A stretch of DNA of 64,000 nt. Origin: Arthrobacter pascens. GTDB taxonomy: Bacteria > Actinomycetota > Actinomycetes > Actinomycetales > Micrococcaceae. Below the pieces are notes generated by a model. It had not been told where the DNA came from. It searched no databases and saw only the letters and a program-made list of their open reading frames with translations. The stretch covers positions 4,665,876-4,729,875 of the forward strand of contig NZ_JAUSWY010000001.1 of NCBI RefSeq assembly GCF_030815585.1. Reading direction: 5' to 3'. Shown piece by piece: positions 38,698 through 46,319 of this stretch. Every line of letters begins with the position of its first letter. Within the stretch, counting starts at the first letter, position 1. Both the position numbers and the translations under genes were made by a program.

Positions 38698-39588
38698 CTA
38701 AGCTGCGAGGGCTTGGGCGCGGTATTGCACCGGGCTCAGGCCCTCGAGCTTTGTTGAGATCCTTTTGGTGTTGTACCAGTGGATGTATTCCTCTATTGCA
38801 GGTGCCAGTGCGTCGGTGTTGAGGAATCGGACGTGGTGGAAGAGTTCTTCCTTGAGGTGGCCGAAGAAGTTCTCCATGACGGCGTTGTCGTAGCAGTTGC
38901 CCTTGCGGGACATTGATTGGACCGCGCCGGCGCCCTCGATCAGGGTGCGCCAGGAGGCATGGCGGTACTGGAAACCTTGGTCCGAGTGCACCAGCGGCTG
39001 CTGACCGGGCTTCAGAGAGGTCAGGGCCTCACGCAGGGAATCGTTGGTGAGCGCGAGGTTCGGGGATAAGCCCAGTGAGTAAGAAATGATCTGCCGGTCG
39101 AAGAGGTCCATGACCGGTGAGAGGTAGAGCTTCCGGTCGCCGACGTTGAACTCCGTCACATCGGTTACCCACTTCTGGTTCGGTGCATCAGCCTCGAATT
39201 CTCGGTTCAGCACGTTGGGCGCTACCGCGCCCTGTTCGCCCTGGTAGGAGTTGTAGCGCTTCCTGCGCCGGACCTTGCAGGCCAACCCGAGTGCCTGCAT
39301 CAGCTTCAGCACGGTCTTCTTCACGACCGTCCACCCTTGCTTGAACAGCTCCGTTTGGACCCGCCGGTGCCCGTACCGGCGATGGTTCGTTTCGAAGATC
39401 TCCGTGACCGCCGCTTTGAGCTTCTCTTTCGGGTCGGGCGCCTGGAGCCGGGGCTGGTGATAGAAGAACGTGGATCTGGCCAGCCCGGCGACGTCCAGCA
39501 GGACAGCAAGCGGATAGTCAGCCTTGAGGGAAACGACGGCTTGAACCTTTACCGTCGTCCCTGTTCCCTCAAGGCCCGCAGTTTTCCC
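38698..39588 (-). CDS. IS3-family transposase OrfB
   Basis: The rve/DDE integrase part: WVTDVTEF, the second Asp in VHSDQGFQY, and the Glu in NCYDNAVMENFFGHLKEE. The open frame runs back to the slippery site at 39582-39588 and has no stop up to there, so it is probably made as an OrfAB fusion by -1 frameshifting. Its TAG stop lies within the target duplication of the IS256-family element, which restored it, so OrfB keeps its natural end. Confidence 0.88.
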   Translation of the reverse strand, partial: GKTAGLEGTGTTVKVQAVVSLKADYPLAVLLDVAGLARSTFFYHQPRLQAPDPKEKLKAAVTEIFETNHRRYGHRRVQTELFKQGWTVVKKTVLKLMQALGLACKVRRRKRYNSYQGEQGAVAPNVLNREFEADAPNQKWVTDVTEFNVGDRKLYLSPVMDLFDRQIISYSLGLSPNLALTNDSLREALTSLKPGQQPLVHSDQGFQYRHASWRTLIEGAGAVQSMSRKGNCYDNAVMENFFGHLKEELFHHVRFLNTDALAPAIEEYIHWYNTKRISTKLEGLSPVQYRAQALAA

Positions 39589-40034
39589 AGGTACGCCACC
39601 TGGGCGCGCAGCCGCTCGTTCTCCCGCCGCAACCGCTCAAGCTCCGGCAGTTCCGCAGGCGGCGGGGAATCAGGTTTCCGCGGTCTGCCTTTGGGCTTTG
39701 GCCGCAACCCGTCCTCACCCTCCAGACGATACGCCCGGACCCACTTTTGCAGCAGCTCACGGGACGCCAAACCAGCCTCCACTGCCAGATCCGGGCCGGG
39801 CTCGCCCGCGAGGAACCGCTCCACCAAGGCCAGCTTGAACTCGAAAGAGTATGACTTCGCCGGCCTGCTCACCAGCACTCCCTGCCCATGAATCCTCCAT
39901 CGCCCATACAGTGCCCTGACCGGCACCCAAGGCTCATCCAGCAATCGGGCCGCCGCCCGATACCCGATGCCCCTCTCAAACAACGCTACAGCCGCCTCAC
40001 GCTGCGCCTCAGACAATGAACTACATGCACGCAT
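39549..40034 (-). CDS. IS3-family transposase OrfA
   Basis: A 161-residue helix-turn-helix protein: LSEAQREAAVALFERGIGYRAAARLL and SYSFEFKLALVERFLAG are two HTH parts, followed by a leucine-zipper helix (LPELERLRRENERLRAQVAYLGKL). Near its end the minus strand reads G GGA AAA (plus 39582-39588), an XXXYYYZ slippery heptamer in the correct frame for a -1 shift into orfB. Confidence 0.88.
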   Translation of the reverse strand: MRACSSLSEAQREAAVALFERGIGYRAAARLLDEPWVPVRALYGRWRIHGQGVLVSRPAKSYSFEFKLALVERFLAGEPGPDLAVEAGLASRELLQKWVRAYRLEGEDGLRPKPKGRPRKPDSPPPAELPELERLRRENERLRAQVAYLGKLRALREQGRR

Positions 40035-40657: not shown

Positions 40658-41037
40658 GGCTGAACTTTCTCGAAGGAGTCTGGTTCCCCTGTATCGGGGA
40701 CGGCAATGAGTGTCAGCGGTTCCGCGCACAGCAAGGAAACCCTGTGCGCATTGCGTTCGAGGCGGCCCGGGAAAAGCTAGGGACGACCGCCGTCGAGCGT
40801 GGACGCTGATGTATTAGCCGGCGCAAGGCAGGCCAGAACGGCCACCCCGCTCACCATGGCAGCGACGACCTGGGAGGTCCCCTGCATGCTCATTGCCCTC
40901 GTTCCATCGATGTTCAGCCGGCTTGTAACCCGGCCACCTCATCTTGCCAAAAGCAAATTAGCCTGTCCATCAGCCCGCGAGAGTGTGTCCTTTGTCACCT
41001 AGGGCAATTAAGTTACGCAAACCTTGCGTAATGCACA
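40658..41037. promoter_or_regulatory. Intergenic region with an 8+3+8 palindrome
   Basis: No credible gene lies here. TTACGCAA at 41013-41020 and TTGCGTAA at 41024-41031 form a perfect inverted repeat around ACC, just upstream of the iron box and 58 bases before the binding-protein start. It may be a second operator for the siderophore operon. Confidence 0.5.
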
Positions 41038-41056
41038 AAAGGGTAGGCTAGCCTTA
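41038..41056. promoter_or_regulatory. Candidate DtxR/IdeR iron box
   Basis: The 19 bases match the IdeR/DtxR consensus at 14 positions, with the core TAGGCTAGCCT intact. It lies 32 bases upstream of the siderophore-binding protein start and should repress the operon when iron is plentiful. Confidence 0.65.
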
Positions 41057-41088
41057 CTTGGGTTCGCATCATTCACCTAAGGAGTTCC

Positions 41089-42180
41089 GTGACTTCCCCC
41101 CTCTTCTCCGGCCCGAGTGCCACACGCCGCACGCTGTTCAAGTCAGCCGGCAAGGCCACAGCCGTTCTGGCCGCCGCGGCGCTCACGTTGTCCGCCTGCT
41201 CCACCGGACCCGCATCCTCCGCTACGGATGCCAGCGCCCCCAGCTCCAGCAGCTCGCAGTTCCCTGTCACCATCAAGCACGTCTTCGGGGAGACCACCAT
41301 CAAGGAACAGCCCAAGCGCGTGGCCACCGTCTCCTGGGTCAATGACGACGTTGCCATTGCCCTGGGTGTCGTTCCCGTAGGCGTCCCCAAGAACGAGTGG
41401 GGCGGCAACGAGAAGGGCTCCACACCTTGGAAGGATGCTGCCCTGGAGAAGCTGGGTGCAGGCTTCGGCTCGGCTAAGGCTCCCGTCCAGTACTCCGAAG
41501 CAGACGGCATCAACTCCACGGAAATCGCCAAACTGGCCCCCGACGTCATCCTGGCCGCCTACTCCGGCCTGACCGAAGAGGATTACAAGAAGCTCAGCGA
41601 GATCGCGCCCGTGGTGGCCCACCCCGAGGTGGCCTACGGAACGTCCTGGCAGGATTCCACCTCCATCATCGGCAAGGCTCTGGGCAAGGACGCCGAGGCC
41701 ACCAAGCTGATCTCGGACACCGAGGCGACCATCAAGGACAAGGCCTCCAAGTACCCGCAGATCGCCGGCAAGAGCTTCATCTACGGCAACCTGGAGCCCG
41801 CCTCTGCTGACGGTGTCAACGTCTACACGGCGAACGACAACCGCCCCCGTTTCCTCTCCGAAATCGGCATGAAGCTGGCGCCGGTCGTGGAGGAGAACTC
41901 CAAGGGTTCCGAAGCGTTCTACCTTCCGTGGTCCGCGGAGAAGGCCAACGAACTCGAGTCCGACATTTTCGTCACGTGGGTTCCGGACGCTGCCACGAAA
42001 GACTCCATTAAGTCCGACCCCCTGCTTGGCCAGATCCCGGCCATCAAGAACGGCACCCTGGTCGCCGACTCGGACAACACCCTCACCCTGTCCATCTCCG
42101 CTTCCTCGCCGCTGAGCCTGCCGTGGTCCCTGGACACGTTCCTGCCGCAGCTGGCCACTGCAGCGGATGCAGTGAAGTAA
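41089..42180 (+). CDS. Iron-siderophore ABC transporter substrate-binding lipoprotein
   Basis: A 363-residue lipoprotein with Tat-like start SATRRTLFKS, hydrophobic run and lipobox LSAC. The mature part is a FecB/FepB-type binding protein: FGETTIKEQPKRVATVSW, VILAAYSGLTEEDYKKL, and a C-terminal QLATAADAVK. GTG start after AAGGAG. First of a five-gene operon. Confidence 0.92.
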   Translation: MTSPLFSGPSATRRTLFKSAGKATAVLAAAALTLSACSTGPASSATDASAPSSSSSQFPVTIKHVFGETTIKEQPKRVATVSWVNDDVAIALGVVPVGVPKNEWGGNEKGSTPWKDAALEKLGAGFGSAKAPVQYSEADGINSTEIAKLAPDVILAAYSGLTEEDYKKLSEIAPVVAHPEVAYGTSWQDSTSIIGKALGKDAEATKLISDTEATIKDKASKYPQIAGKSFIYGNLEPASADGVNVYTANDNRPRFLSEIGMKLAPVVEENSKGSEAFYLPWSAEKANELESDIFVTWVPDAATKDSIKSDPLLGQIPAIKNGTLVADSDNTLTLSISASSPLSLPWSLDTFLPQLATAADAVK

Positions 42181-42189
42181 GCACCACCA

Positions 42190-43290
42190 ATGCAACGTAC
42201 GACGACGGCGCCCGCCATCGCGCGCGAACTGGCAGATAATGCCCCCAAAACCGCAAAAACAGGGAATTATCTGCCAGTTCGCGGCGGGGGGAAAGCCGGA
42301 ACCAGACAGGCCGCCTGGTTCCTGGCCGCCGTCGTCGTACTTGCTCTACTCGCCGCCGCATCACTGGCCGTCGGTGCACGGGGTCTTTCCCTGGGCACCG
42401 TGTGGCAGGCCCTGATGCAGTTCGAACCCTCCAGCGGCGACCACGCGGTGGTCCACGCACGGATCCCCCGCACGGTCCTGGGACTGCTCGCCGGCGCAGC
42501 CCTTGGCCTCGCCGGCGCGGCCATGCAGGGCGTGGCGCGCAACCCGCTGGCAGACCCGGGCATCATGGGCGTCAACGCCGGAGCGGCCCTGGCCGTGGTC
42601 ACCGGAATCTACGTTTTCGGCGTCACCTCCCTCACCGGCTACATCTGGTTCGCCTTCATTGGCGCCGCAGCGGCCGCCGTCGTGGTTTACCTCGTTGCCT
42701 CCCTGGGCAGGGAACGTGCGACACCGGTTAAGCTCGCCCTCGCGGGCGCCGCGCTGAGTGCCGGCCTCTACTCGCTGATGAATGTCATCCTGGTCTCCAG
42801 CCAGGACACCCTGGACCGCTTCCGGTTCTGGCAGGTGGGCGGGATCGCAGGCCGGGACTGGTCAGTGGTTCTGCCCGGCCTGCCTTTCCTGGCCGTGGGT
42901 GCTGTCATTGTGCTTTTGAGCGGGCGCATCCTCAACGGCCTTGCCCTGGGCGACGACATCGCACGGGGCCTCGGTCAGCGTGTGGGTCTGGCCCGCGGAA
43001 TCACCGCGCTGGGAATTGTGCTGCTGTGCGGCTCCGCTACGGCGCTGGCCGGACCCATCGGCTTTGTCGGCCTGGTCATTCCGCATGCCGTCCGTTCCCT
43101 CACCGGCCCCGACTACCGCTGGATCCTGCCCTTCTCGCTGGTCCTGGCCCCGGCTTTGCTGCTGGGCGCGGACATCATCGGCAGGGTAGTCCTGCTGCCC
43201 GGCGAGGTCCCCGCAGGCATCATGACCGCCCTGGTGGGTGCGCCGGTGTTCGTCTGGCTGATCCGGCGTGGCAAGGGGGCAGGGCTGTGA
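42190..43290 (+). CDS. Iron-siderophore ABC permease (FecCD type)
   Basis: A 366-residue permease with nine or ten membrane segments and the FecCD motifs RIPRTVLGLLAGAALGLAG and ARNPLADPGIMG. Residues 12-33 (RELADNAPKTAKTGNYLPVR) do not fit the family: they are coded by the palindromic element at 42223-42283, inserted in frame before the first membrane helix. The start is ATG, nine bases after the previous stop. Confidence 0.92.
   Translation: MQRTTTAPAIARELADNAPKTAKTGNYLPVRGGGKAGTRQAAWFLAAVVVLALLAAASLAVGARGLSLGTVWQALMQFEPSSGDHAVVHARIPRTVLGLLAGAALGLAGAAMQGVARNPLADPGIMGVNAGAALAVVTGIYVFGVTSLTGYIWFAFIGAAAAAVVVYLVASLGRERATPVKLALAGAALSAGLYSLMNVILVSSQDTLDRFRFWQVGGIAGRDWSVVLPGLPFLAVGAVIVLLSGRILNGLALGDDIARGLGQRVGLARGITALGIVLLCGSATALAGPIGFVGLVIPHAVRSLTGPDYRWILPFSLVLAPALLLGADIIGRVVLLPGEVPAGIMTALVGAPVFVWLIRRGKGAGL
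42223..42283. repeat. In-frame palindromic element, copy A
   Basis: Arms of 22 bases (42223-42244 and 42262-42283) pair at 21 positions around a 17-base loop ending CAAAAACA. The arm opens CGCGAACTGGCAGATAAT. Copy B in the next gene has the same arm with T changed to A, and the matching A changed to T on the other arm, so pairing is preserved. Confidence 0.9.
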
Positions 43291-44453
43291 GTATTAAGAC
43301 CGGGACCAACCATGCCGTTGCCACCAGCCCGCGCGAACAGGCAGATAATGCCCTCAACACTCCAAAAACAGGGCATTACCTGCCTGTTCGCGCCAACCTC
43401 CTGGGCCGGACCATACTGAACCGCACCGCCGTCCTGGCCCTCGGCGTCCTGGCCCTCGGCGTCCTGGCCCTTTTTGCCGCCTACGTCCTGCTCGGCAGCT
43501 ATACGGTGACAGTCCCGGACTTCTTCAAGATCCTCATCGCCCACCTCACCGGGGGCGAGAAAATCCCCGGCGCCAGCTTCATTGTGATGGAGAACAAGCT
43601 GCCCAGGGCTGTCATCGGCACCATGATCGGCGTGGCATTCGGCCTGGCCGGCGGACTGTTCCAGACCATGCTCCGCAACCCGTTGGCCAGCCCCGACGTT
43701 ATCGGCATCAGCTACGGTGCCAGTGCAGCAGCGGTCACAGCCATTGTGATTTTCGGAGCGTCCGGCGCGGCGGTGTCCGGGGCAGCCTTGGGCGGCGCAC
43801 TCGGCGTCGCCGCCCTTATCTACGCCGTCTCCCGCGGCCGGTCCCTGGGATCCGGCGGCGGGAACACGGGCAACGCAGCGGGGAACCGCCTGATCCTGGC
43901 CGGAGTGGGCATCGCCGCCGCACTCCACGCCGTAGTCAGCTTCCTCATGACCCGCGCTGACATCCGCACAGCCGCTGACGCACTGGTCTGGCTCAACGGC
44001 TCACTTAACTCCGCGAGCTGGGATCGTGCCGGAATGCTGGCCCTCGCGCTGCTGATCCTCATCCCGGCCGTCGTGACCCTGGCCGGGCCGCTCCGCATCC
44101 TCGAACTCGGCGACGATGCCGCTGCCGGCTTGGGCATCCGCGTCGGGTTCACCCGCCTCGCGGTGGTGGTCACCGCCGTCGCACTCGCCGCAGTGGCGAC
44201 GGCGGCCGCCGGGCCGGTCTCGTTCGTCGCCTTCCTGGCCGGCCCCATCGCCCGCCGCTTCACCCGGAAGGCCAGCCTTCCGGCGTCGGCCCTTGTTGGT
44301 GCCGTTATTGTCCTGGCGGCGGACTACTTCGCGGCCAACCTCGCCCCCCTGCTGCTGGACGGCACGGCGCTGCCTGTCGGTGTGATCACCGGCGCCCTCG
44401 GTGCCCCGTTCCTGCTGTGGCTCCTGGTCACCGCCAACCGAAAGGATGCCTGA
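43287..44453 (+). CDS. Iron-siderophore ABC permease (FecCD type), second subunit
   Basis: A 388-residue FecCD permease: [36 protein letters not shown] and a C-terminal [19 protein letters not shown] start overlaps the stop of the first permease. Residues 16-36 ([20 protein letters not shown]) are coded by copy B of the palindromic element, at almost the same place as in its neighbour. It pairs with the first permease to form the channel. Confidence 0.92.
43331..43393. repeat. In-frame palindromic element, copy B
   Basis: Arms of 23 bases (43331-43353 and 43371-43393) pair at 22 positions around a 17-base loop, also ending CAAAAACA. It is read in the same frame as copy A and gives a related peptide ending YLPVR. 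Confidence 0.9.
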
Positions 44454-44454
44454 C

Positions 44455-45282
44455 ATGGCAGTTCTCAACGCCCGGGACCTCACGCTGAAATACGATCAGC
44501 GCTGTGTAGTCGATGGCCTCACGGCGGAGATTCCCGAGGGCAAGGTGACCATGATCGTTGGCGCCAACGCGTGCGGAAAGTCCACGCTGCTCCGAGGCCT
44601 GTCCAGGCTTCTCAAACCCGCCGCGGGAGCTGTGACGCTGGACGGCAAAGACATCCATGCCCGCCCTGCCCGCGAACTTGCCCGCACCCTGGGCCTCCTC
44701 CCGCAGCACCCCACGGCCCCGGACGGCATAACCGTCCGGGACCTCGTGGGCCGCGGGCGGTACCCGCACCAAGGCTTCTTCCGCAGCTGGTCCGAGAAGG
44801 ACGACGCCGCGATGCAGCGTGCGCTGGAAGCCACGGAAACCCTGGAACTCGCCGGCCGGAACGTTGACGAGCTGTCCGGCGGACAGCGCCAGCGCGTCTG
44901 GATTGCTATGGCGCTCGCCCAGGAGACCGACATCCTGCTGCTGGATGAACCCACCACCTACCTTGACCTGGCCCACCAGGTTGAGGTCCTGGACCTGGTC
45001 ACAGACCTGAACCGTACGCGCGGCACCACCGTGGCTATCGTCCTGCATGACCTGAACCTGGCTGCACGGTACGCGGACCACGTCATCGCCATGAAGGGCG
45101 GCGCGGTGGTGGCACTGGGCGCGCCGGGGGACGTTGTTACCGAGGAGCTGGTTCGGGAGGTCTTCGGACTGGAGTCCCGGGTGATTCCGGATCCCGTTTC
45201 GGGCACGCCCCTGATCATCCCCATCGGCCGTCACCACGCCGCCGTCAACGCCGCCGTCAACGAACTGGAGCTCATTTCATGA
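44455..45282 (+). CDS. Iron-siderophore ABC transporter ATP-binding protein
   Basis: A 275-residue FecE/FepC-type ATPase: Walker [10 protein letters not shown] (Ala and Cys in the loop, as often in this group), signature [17 protein letters not shown], Walker [13 protein letters not shown] and the switch histidine in VLHDLNLA. The ATG at 44455 follows the second permease closely and its stop overlaps the next start. Confidence 0.93.
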
Positions 45283-46319
45283 AGACCCGCGATATTGCCT
45301 CCACCGAGCCCATGACCCTGGCGTTCGAGGTCACCGTTTCCTCCGTACAGGAGCTGAGCTCCAACTTCCGCCGGATCACGTTCGGCGGCTATTCACTGCG
45401 TGACTTCGGCGTCCACGGGGACACCATGGACCTGCGGATCAAACTCATGATCCCGTCCCTGGCCGAGGACGGCACCCCACTTCCGCTCCCGGTCTTCGAA
45501 ATGTCCCAGTCGGGCTGGTACCGGGAGTGGCTGGCCATGGACCCGGCAGTCCGCGGCTCCATGCGCACCTACACTGTGCGCCGGTCCCGGCTCGATTCGG
45601 TGTACCCGGAGATCGACGTGGACTTCGTGATGCACTTTGACTCGGACGGCAACGGCGGCCCGGCCGCTAACTGGGCCCTCAACGCCAAGCCGGGGGATGC
45701 CATCAACATCATCGGACCCAACAACCGGGCCGCACACTGCGTTACCGCGGAGATCTACTCCGGCATCGAATGGCGGCCGGGAATGGCCCAGCGTGTCCTC
45801 CTTGCCGGCGACGAAACTGCCATCCCCGCGATCTCCGCCATCCTCGAGAGCCTGCCCGCGTACATGACCGGCCACGCATTCCTTGAGGTGCCGGAGGCGG
45901 GTGACTTCCTGGATCTCAAGACGCGCGCCGACGTCGAGATCACCTGGCTTGCCCGCGGCGCGGCCATCGGCCGCTCCCGCCCGCACGGTGAGATGCTCCA
46001 AGAAGCCGTCCGCCTGGCCGTTCCGGTGCCGGGCTGGGTGGCGATCAAAGCCTCCGACGGCGGCGCAGGCCCCGAGCCGGAGGACGTCAACGTGGATGTG
46101 GACATCCTCTGGGAGACCCCTGCGCGAATGGACACCGCGGCGATCGGTGCCACCAAGAACCCGGACATGCCGGCAGGCGCCATGCCTTTCTACGCCTGGA
46201 TCGCCGGTGAAGCAGCCGTCATCAAGGACATGCGGCGGTACCTGGTGCGGGATGTGGGGATCGACCGGAAGCAGGTTGCGTTCATGGGGTACTGGCGTCA
46301 GGGCAAGGCCGAGGTCTAG
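45279..46319 (+). CDS. Siderophore-interacting protein (ferric-siderophore reductase)
   Basis: A 346-residue SIP/ViuB-type flavin reductase: N-terminal FAD barrel ([24 protein letters not shown]) and NAD-binding part ([37 protein letters not shown]). It reduces the imported iron-siderophore in the cytoplasm to release iron. Last gene of the operon, ATGA overlap. Confidence 0.92.

Follow-up and report, generated by a model that had tools for sequence, protein, structure and literature searches.

In-frame palindromes in two adjacent permease genes of Arthrobacter pascens belong to a dispersed, probably REPIN-like family

Introduction

Within a siderophore operon of Arthrobacter pascens, two adjacent permease genes each contain, in the same reading frame, a short sequence able to form a long hairpin. 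Why coding sequence should hold such a palindrome twice, and whether it is kept for its DNA, its RNA or its peptide, are the questions that this locus raises. A first-pass annotation of the surrounding 64,000 nucleotides (the window, to which the positions in Table 1 refer) favoured selection on the hairpin, as DNA or RNA, over selection on the peptide, and offered as readings a small mobile repeat or an RNA structure limiting permease translation. As a whole, that interpretation is partly supported by what follows.

The matter reaches beyond one operon. The palindromes form a large, patchily distributed set without a detectable RAYT transposase, and how bacterial palindromes persist and stay symmetrical is an open question. 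Here a single site can be followed through dozens of species, in coding as well as non-coding settings and with differing stem types, which provides natural replicates; and sequence alone can address whether DNA processes or an RNA function keep palindromes. Our own reading, held with moderate confidence, is that both copies are probably REPIN-like 63-bp palindromes of Arthrobacter and its relatives, which persist through events at the level of DNA and not because the messenger needs them.

Results

Two palindromes in a siderophore operon

The operon encodes a binding protein, permeases A and B, an ATPase and a siderophore-interacting protein, in that order, as identified by Pfam (Table 1). 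Since both frames that host a palindrome are FecCD permeases (Pfam FecCD, E 8e-90 for A and 1e-64 for B), the placement of the hairpins in frame in two adjacent permease genes is borne out. The arms of 22-23 bases around a 17-base loop that had been described for both copies hold for copy A, which has 22-nt arms (95% complementary) and a 17-nt spacer, and not for copy B, which has 24-nt arms (96% complementary) and a 15-nt spacer; where the arms differ between copies (CTGG or CAGG), the change is indeed matched on the opposite arm. Together the two copies make up the longest direct repeat between positions 41000 and 45000 (72 nt, 85%). With 63-nt boundaries set from the family alignment described below, copy A begins 42 nt past the final base of the stop codon of the binding-protein gene, and copy B 41 nt past that of permease A. 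Within permease A, copy A is translated as RELADNAPKTAKTGNYLPVR.

Table 1. Features of the siderophore operon, with positions in the window
Feature	Position	Strand	Remarks
Substrate-binding protein gene	41089..42180	+	Pfam Peripla_BP_2
FecCD permease gene A	42190..43290	+	ATG start 9 nt past the binding-protein stop; copy A in the variable N-terminal linker
Copy A, 63-nt palindrome	42222..42284	+	arms 42223-42244 / 42262-42283; in-frame reading RELADNAPKTAKTGNYLPVRG
FecCD permease gene B	43287..44453	+	GTG start (read from the sequence), 4-nt overlap with the stop of A; contains copy B
Copy B, 63-nt palindrome	43331..43393	+	arms 43331-43354 / 43370-43393; in-frame reading of about 20-21 residues
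ABC transporter ATPase gene, same operon	44455..45282	+	start read from the sequence
Siderophore-interacting protein gene, 3' of the ATPase gene	45279..46319	+	Pfam SIP

As RNA, both copies fold strongly (copy A, -36.3 kcal/mol, z -8.3; copy B, -41.7 kcal/mol, z -10.2), and for neither was any of 200 dinucleotide shuffles as stable; Rfam gave no family match between 41000 and 45000, up to an E value of 1. Such folds, situated behind the binding-protein stop codon and again behind permease A, speak for an RNA hairpin that balances the operon by protecting the binding-protein message or marking a site of cutting, leaving more binding protein than permease, a reading that we nevertheless judge unlikely in the light of the comparisons below.

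Upstream of the operon, two transposase-like frames lie on the minus strand of the window (38698-39324 and 39549-40034), with Pfam matches to integrase core and HTH_Tnp_1; as a pair, they are reminiscent of IS3-like elements. Also upstream of the binding-protein gene, at about 41040-41070, the sequence TAGGCTAGCCTTACTT resembles what we take to be an iron-regulator (DtxR/IdeR) box, as a candidate only.

A palindrome family dispersed through the host genome

A BLAST search of the 4.73-Mb host genome with copy A returned 39 matches, which merged across strands into 23 places. When aligned, all 23 copies were 63 nt long with no indels, 22 columns were invariant, and the ends, GCGCGAACTGGCAG and its complement in inverted order, were conserved. 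A covariance model, with which 150 of 2375 first-look candidates were scored, identified 24 strong places (at least 53 bits), 22 of them in addition to A and B, together with 3 weaker and 3 marginal ones, and pairing between the arms covaries to a degree reached in none of 500 shuffles. The 23 aligned copies differ from one another (median identity 78%, best pair 92%), unlike the products of fresh transposition. Within this genome, the best match of copy A is copy B and vice versa (86% identity), which fits either an exchange between the two or a common coding constraint. The 24 host copies also lie closer to the start or end of the contig than expected by chance (mean 0.75 versus 1.18 Mb, P 0.0008) and, provided that the contig starts at the origin, avoid the terminus half. 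For another genome (G244), the places listed show no contig-end bias by eye.

Distribution of the family and of related palindromes

The exact end pattern was found in 41 of 101 sampled genomes of the genus, 28 of which have three or more matches (maximum 38), while 60 of the 101 have none. A reversed-pattern control gave 0-2 matches in genus genomes; as chance matches of the exact pattern occur within the genus as well (for example in G363, G353 and G349), counts of one or two carry little meaning. At 100 named loci, all 106 pattern matches span 59 nt, though 59-63 was permitted; among the exact-pattern matches listed, the 80 record titles are every one Arthrobacter or Pseudarthrobacter. Extending the search to the taxonomic family with the covariance model, as the first-pass annotation had suggested, gave hits in 43 of 295 sampled genomes, spread over 12 of 32 genera, with stricter filters here and no more than 18 candidates per genome scored. 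In a sample of the phylum, 73 of 396 genomes had a match, at 0-3 per genome except in the host genome and G009. The matches outside those two genomes we attribute to chance, since inspection by eye of the phylum matches listed shows unpaired interiors in all but one, in G457. That one (G457:C1:3039634-3039696), in a class mate from outside the taxonomic family, is a lone 63-nt palindrome with GCGCGAAC ends and another stem. With its 24 strong host sites and its exact matches across the genus, the dispersed repeat that had been suspected is thus real.

Two kinds of stem occur inside GCGCGAAC...GTTCGCGC, namely TGGCAGCTAATGCCC, of 63 nt, and GKACACTTGAGGCCC, of about 51-68 nt among the matches listed, the variable-length subtype being GKACA. 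Two further palindromes are dispersed in the genus: CTATCACTT...AAGTGATAG, in 45 of 101 genomes and with a core of mostly 49 nt, and CGAGRTRRCA...TGYYAYCTCG, in 51 of 101 genomes (35 for a narrower form) and mostly of 57 nt. The latter, aligned by eye, may form one superfamily with the first kinds, and all three types coexist in one genome, G381. Unpaired single arms account for 33 of 323 in 126 loci, a few of which resemble chance matches. In a different genome, identical palindromes close to both contig ends (G208:C1:8085 and G208:C1:3875887) suggest that the assembly repeats its own ends.

Could the family be a true mobile REPIN or MITE, actively transposed? Its patchy presence, the existence of two further dispersed types and the occurrence of different types at one site (see below) would all suit that idea. 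However, the transposase expected of REPINs was nearly absent: the RAYT family (PF01797) was detected in 1 of 101 genus genomes and not in the host genome, while a control search was positive in 5 of 14 named genomes. We therefore rejected a RAYT-driven REPIN and, since Pfam finds no such transposase in 100 of 101 genomes, file the family as REPIN-like and not as REPIN. Movement by some other transposase is improbable as well, given that no near-identical copies exist in the host genome, that no target duplication is apparent by eye in the flanks, and that a search of plasmids and phages with a single copy as query found no match. In the open-licence literature searched, we found no publication naming this palindrome family, which agrees with the earlier remark that no such named element was known from Arthrobacter.

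Copies lie directly past stop codons

Genes around the copies, in the host genome and at the named loci, were called with a simple codon-usage caller. Among 20 host copies, 13 lie between convergent genes, 6 between tandem and 1 between divergent genes; the 108 copies at 100 named loci comprise 41 convergent, 51 tandem and 4 divergent cases, 3 within a gene and 9 at a locus edge, and some of those called tandem proved to be permease copies. Once permease copies are set aside, the 109 classed copies divide into 54 convergent, 50 tandem and 5 divergent, and 453 copy-free gaps into 46, 305 and 102, respectively. Moreover, 37 of the 50 tandem copies (permease copies excluded) start 4-30 nt past a stop codon. 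The family's usual location is therefore directly past stop codons.

Twelve frames with an upstream start codon run open through a copy: nine are the permeases described here, two (L176 and L181) likely start downstream of it, and one, L214, is a possible coding case. A count of coding against intergenic copies, which the first-pass annotation had proposed, accordingly leaves these two permease genes as the only ones with confirmed coding copies in the loci examined, L214 aside. A transhydrogenase-like frame of the host (L010), likewise open through a copy, was rejected as a coding case, its likely start lying 3' of the copy. In Arthrobacter sp. Hiyo4 (AP014718.1, L159:1772-1834), the permease A gene behind the copy gives matches spread over more than one frame, which suggests frame shifts or assembly errors.

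The idea that two copies and the gene between them move as one unit was also considered and discarded. Of the close pairs inspected, L017 and L167 represent one location in two species, L164 is the present operon, and the pairs at L150, L212 and L137 enclose, by eye, ordinary metabolic or regulatory genes. That some copy positions, such as L017 and L167, are common to different species counts against a REPIN-like reading.

The 3' side of ndk and transcription termination

As a non-coding comparison we read the 3' side of ndk, covering 90 of the 99 genomes in which ndk was matched; one was masked, leaving 89 readable. An inverted repeat lies behind ndk in all 89, with scores of 11-31, all but one at least 14, the yardstick being shuffles of permease windows and not of ndk (maximum 12.5). 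By rule, this hairpin is of the GCGCGAAC type in 18 of the 19 genomes with at least eight exact copies, the nineteenth (G227) having a changed end, and in 1 of the 70 genomes with fewer than eight (G374). The type at ndk thus goes with the type elsewhere in the genome, with slight circularity in that the ndk copy may itself be counted among a genome's copies. This constancy makes the ndk repeat look like a functional 3'-end site, which again argues against a REPIN-like reading. In 8 of 24 printed sequences of the ndk 3' side (genomes G331, G379, G123, G244, G314, G365, G309 and G333; loci L244, L245, L261, L264, L287, L319, L320 and L322), a single palindrome arm precedes the full palindrome by about 30 nt, in direct orientation, which hints that half units may carry a meaning of their own.

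Are the copies, then, two-way transcription terminators of common sequence, and those in the permeases terminator-like hairpins? Placement at gene 3' ends and the universal repeat behind ndk point that way, and seven consecutive T close the copy behind ndk in the host. At least five T among nine bases follow the hairpin in 30 of 165 gene-facing flanks versus 4 of 67 flanks not directed at a gene end, a T-richness that raises this reading slightly. An unbroken run of at least four T, however, occurs behind the hairpin in only 10 of the 165 gene-facing flanks, so that most copies have no classical T run; neither a common sequence nor a fixed length is required of a terminator, and one inside the operon would cut the permeases off. 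While some extragenic copies, such as that behind ndk, may well terminate transcription, we regard the general explanation as doubtful, and retain a REPIN-like palindrome persisting at the DNA level as the preferred one.

The permease copies are compatible with translation

A match to permease A (E 1e-40) was present in 85 of the 101 genus genomes searched, and 70 operons, all from one genus, were examined (30 loci given and 40 fetched). In these, little changes for the most part at the MTxSTTTA start or in the first helix, whereas the linker between them is highly variable. A 63-nt copy occupies site A in 18 of 70 operons and site B in 10, and either site carries a copy in 23 if two 75-nt copies at A are included. 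The remaining 47 have none, so orthologues with and without the insert both exist. Two copy-rich genomes, G123 (15 copies) and G314 (19 copies), have none in the permease operon, and G338 has a decayed copy in the operon and no exact match genome-wide.

All 28 of the 63-nt permease copies are read in an identical frame, and it is free of stop codons in every one, as against 82 of 115 distinct other copies with a stop in the frame used. Codon 13, which lies in the inner part of the second arm, accounts for 50 of these 82 stops (TGA), and codon 16 for 19 (TAG). The inner columns 25-28 are paired at 0.04-0.25 in coding copies versus 0.56-0.69 in the others; coding hairpins are thus shorter at the point where stop codons would otherwise be commonest. 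Two constraints therefore act on coding copies: avoiding the stop has meant giving up the inner stem, while the outer stem is retained.

The peptide itself differs between species (RELADNAPKTAKT..YLPVR in one, RERTVGAPVGSQRGPQVSVR in another). A protein domain or signal peptide was rejected on these grounds, the peptide being almost wholly different between species at a constant frame. At site A, 87.7% of arm cells are paired, with 36 double-changed cells, and at site B 94.3%, with 9, a degree of covariation reached in 0 of 500 shuffles at either site; two other covariation measures at site A were weak (both-side-changed pairs, 31/500; further pair types, 316/500). It is thus the hairpin and not the peptide that is retained, as had been proposed from this one genome. 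The counter-example that the first-pass annotation had named, an identical peptide over a broken hairpin, turned up in none of the 70 operons, all of this genus, and its reverse, a changed peptide with pairing retained, did turn up.

Even the palindrome type can change in place. Within a clade with support of 100/99, G381 has a TGGCAG stem at site A and its sisters G331 and G379 a GGACA stem, with similar flanks (subtypes were read from the sequences and the tree was used for clades). At site B, three palindrome types of equal length and frame were found in 12 of 13 aligned sequences, G364 being without the block; some type 2 and 3 blocks are weak palindromes, several of them no better than shuffles. 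In four relatives with no exact family match (L071, L072, L073 and L074), site A bears another palindrome, around GGCGCTTTGG...CCAAAGCGCC.

Pairing looks to be maintained at the DNA level

Selection on RNA pairing should leave more G·U than A·C mispairs on the sense strand. The observed ratios of G·U to A·C, obtained without a positive control, were 13:15 in coding copies, 22:17 on the sense strand of tandem copies (a few permease copies included) and 24:18 at ndk. A 3:1 excess of G·U is improbable on these counts (P 0.001 for coding copies, 2e-6 pooled), and a 2:1 excess less strongly so (P 0.02 coding, 0.004 pooled, 0.12-0.13 for the tandem or ndk set alone).

Folding was also compared between operons. 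In repeat-rich ones, z fell below -2 at site A in 13 of 22 versus 2 of 22 control windows and at site B in 8 of 22 versus 0 of 22, which, like the pairing retained at both sites, is what an RNA hairpin balancing the operon would call for. In 48 repeat-poor genomes, by contrast, structure is weak (mean z at site A -0.73 versus -0.32 in control windows; at site B -0.24 versus 0.38), and a general need for structure at the two sites was rejected on account of this small excess. With wobble pairs not preferred and two thirds or so of the operons, 47 of 70, lacking a copy, the suggestion of the first-pass annotation that an RNA structure holds down permease translation is not supported; a hairpin inside a gene would moreover be opened by translating ribosomes. 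Taken together, G·U pairs that do not exceed A·C and the little extra structure in repeat-poor genomes suggest that DNA processes maintain the palindrome. Pairing thus looks to be kept up at the DNA level, and an RNA role in the permease operon is possible and not needed.

A simpler version of DNA-level upkeep would be quasipalindrome correction alone, in which an old insert, neither beneficial nor mobile, is kept palindromic by template switching during replication. Site A has 36 double-changed, 8 one-sided and 51 unpaired cells, and the scarcity of one-sided cells beside double-changed ones means that wobble steps are not enriched, as such correction would have it. Published precedents exist as well: inverted repeats are described as sites of template switching (PMC7202029), and homogenised arms have been described in yeast (PMC8604942). 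Correction alone nonetheless leaves unexplained why two dozen copies far apart share their sequence, why the length is fixed at 63 nt and why copies of one genome have stem types in common, and we give it a minor share of the probability.

Discussion

The two permease copies are most likely an orphan REPIN-like repeat that is tolerated in a variable linker. On this account, the family usually lies in the first tens of bases past a stop codon; because the genes of the operon are very close together, that location already belongs to the beginning of the following gene, and the copy is translated as part of the variable linker ahead of the permease's first membrane helix. The palindrome could then persist by arm-to-arm copying, through template switching in the hairpin, with exchange or re-insertion of whole copies probably helping to maintain it, and its persistence would require no hairpin in the messenger. 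Neither a clean empty site nor an excision was seen among the copies compared.

More tentatively, and with rather low confidence, we suggest that a RAYT-free system of Arthrobacter maintains palindromes of about 61-63 bp at gene ends, with its own leading type in each genome, and that it rewrites both arms together at fixed sites, even coding ones, whereby different palindromes of one length could take each other's place in sister species.

Several known systems invite comparison. In Escherichia coli, REP sequences between malE and malF serve to yield more binding protein than permease. There, as here, a palindrome stands between a binding-protein and a permease gene; the malE-malF REPs are extragenic, whereas the Arthrobacter copies are intragenic and missing from 47 of 70 orthologous operons.

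Among published surveys, a table in PMC12306157 has a row for Arthrobacter livingstonensis with the figures 5,512 and 705, and the parts of that paper used here do not describe the family; PMC5217627 treats, in the part used, other dispersed palindromes, some of them between convergent genes. The GTAG and CGTC REP superfamilies resemble ours in being dispersed palindromes that form dimers, and CGTC has no dedicated transposase (PMC3733652). Yet CGTC stems measure 8-9 bp and carry a four-letter end tag, whereas the Arthrobacter stems measure about 23-28 bp and no such tag was seen (PMC3733652, in part). The same paper, whose main text does not contain the words Arthrobacter or Actinobacteria, documents in the sections used both REPs that have no transposase and Rickettsia palindromic elements that are read in frame, and so offers a precedent. 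With these, to which the first-pass annotation had likened the inserts, the family shares short palindromes of which some lie in frame in probably working proteins (PMC3733652, in part). The likeness does not extend to their spread through many unrelated genes: Arthrobacter coding copies are confirmed in one operon, the others are extragenic, and no CGTC end occurs in the loci examined.

The closest parallel is with REPINs, which in Pseudomonas fluorescens SBW25 are REP doublets that form hairpins and whose proposed mover is a RAYT (PMC3116915, in the parts used). As in REPINs, conserved inverted ends stand at a fixed distance around a compensatory middle, most copies are extragenic, and single halves occur too (PMC3116915, in part); the fixed length is broken by the GKACA subtype, at about 51-68 nt among the matches listed, and by the two 75-nt copies at site A. 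Unlike REPINs as described there, the Arthrobacter palindrome is 63 bp long, nearly all paired and strongly placed past stop codons, with in-frame copies suited to translation.
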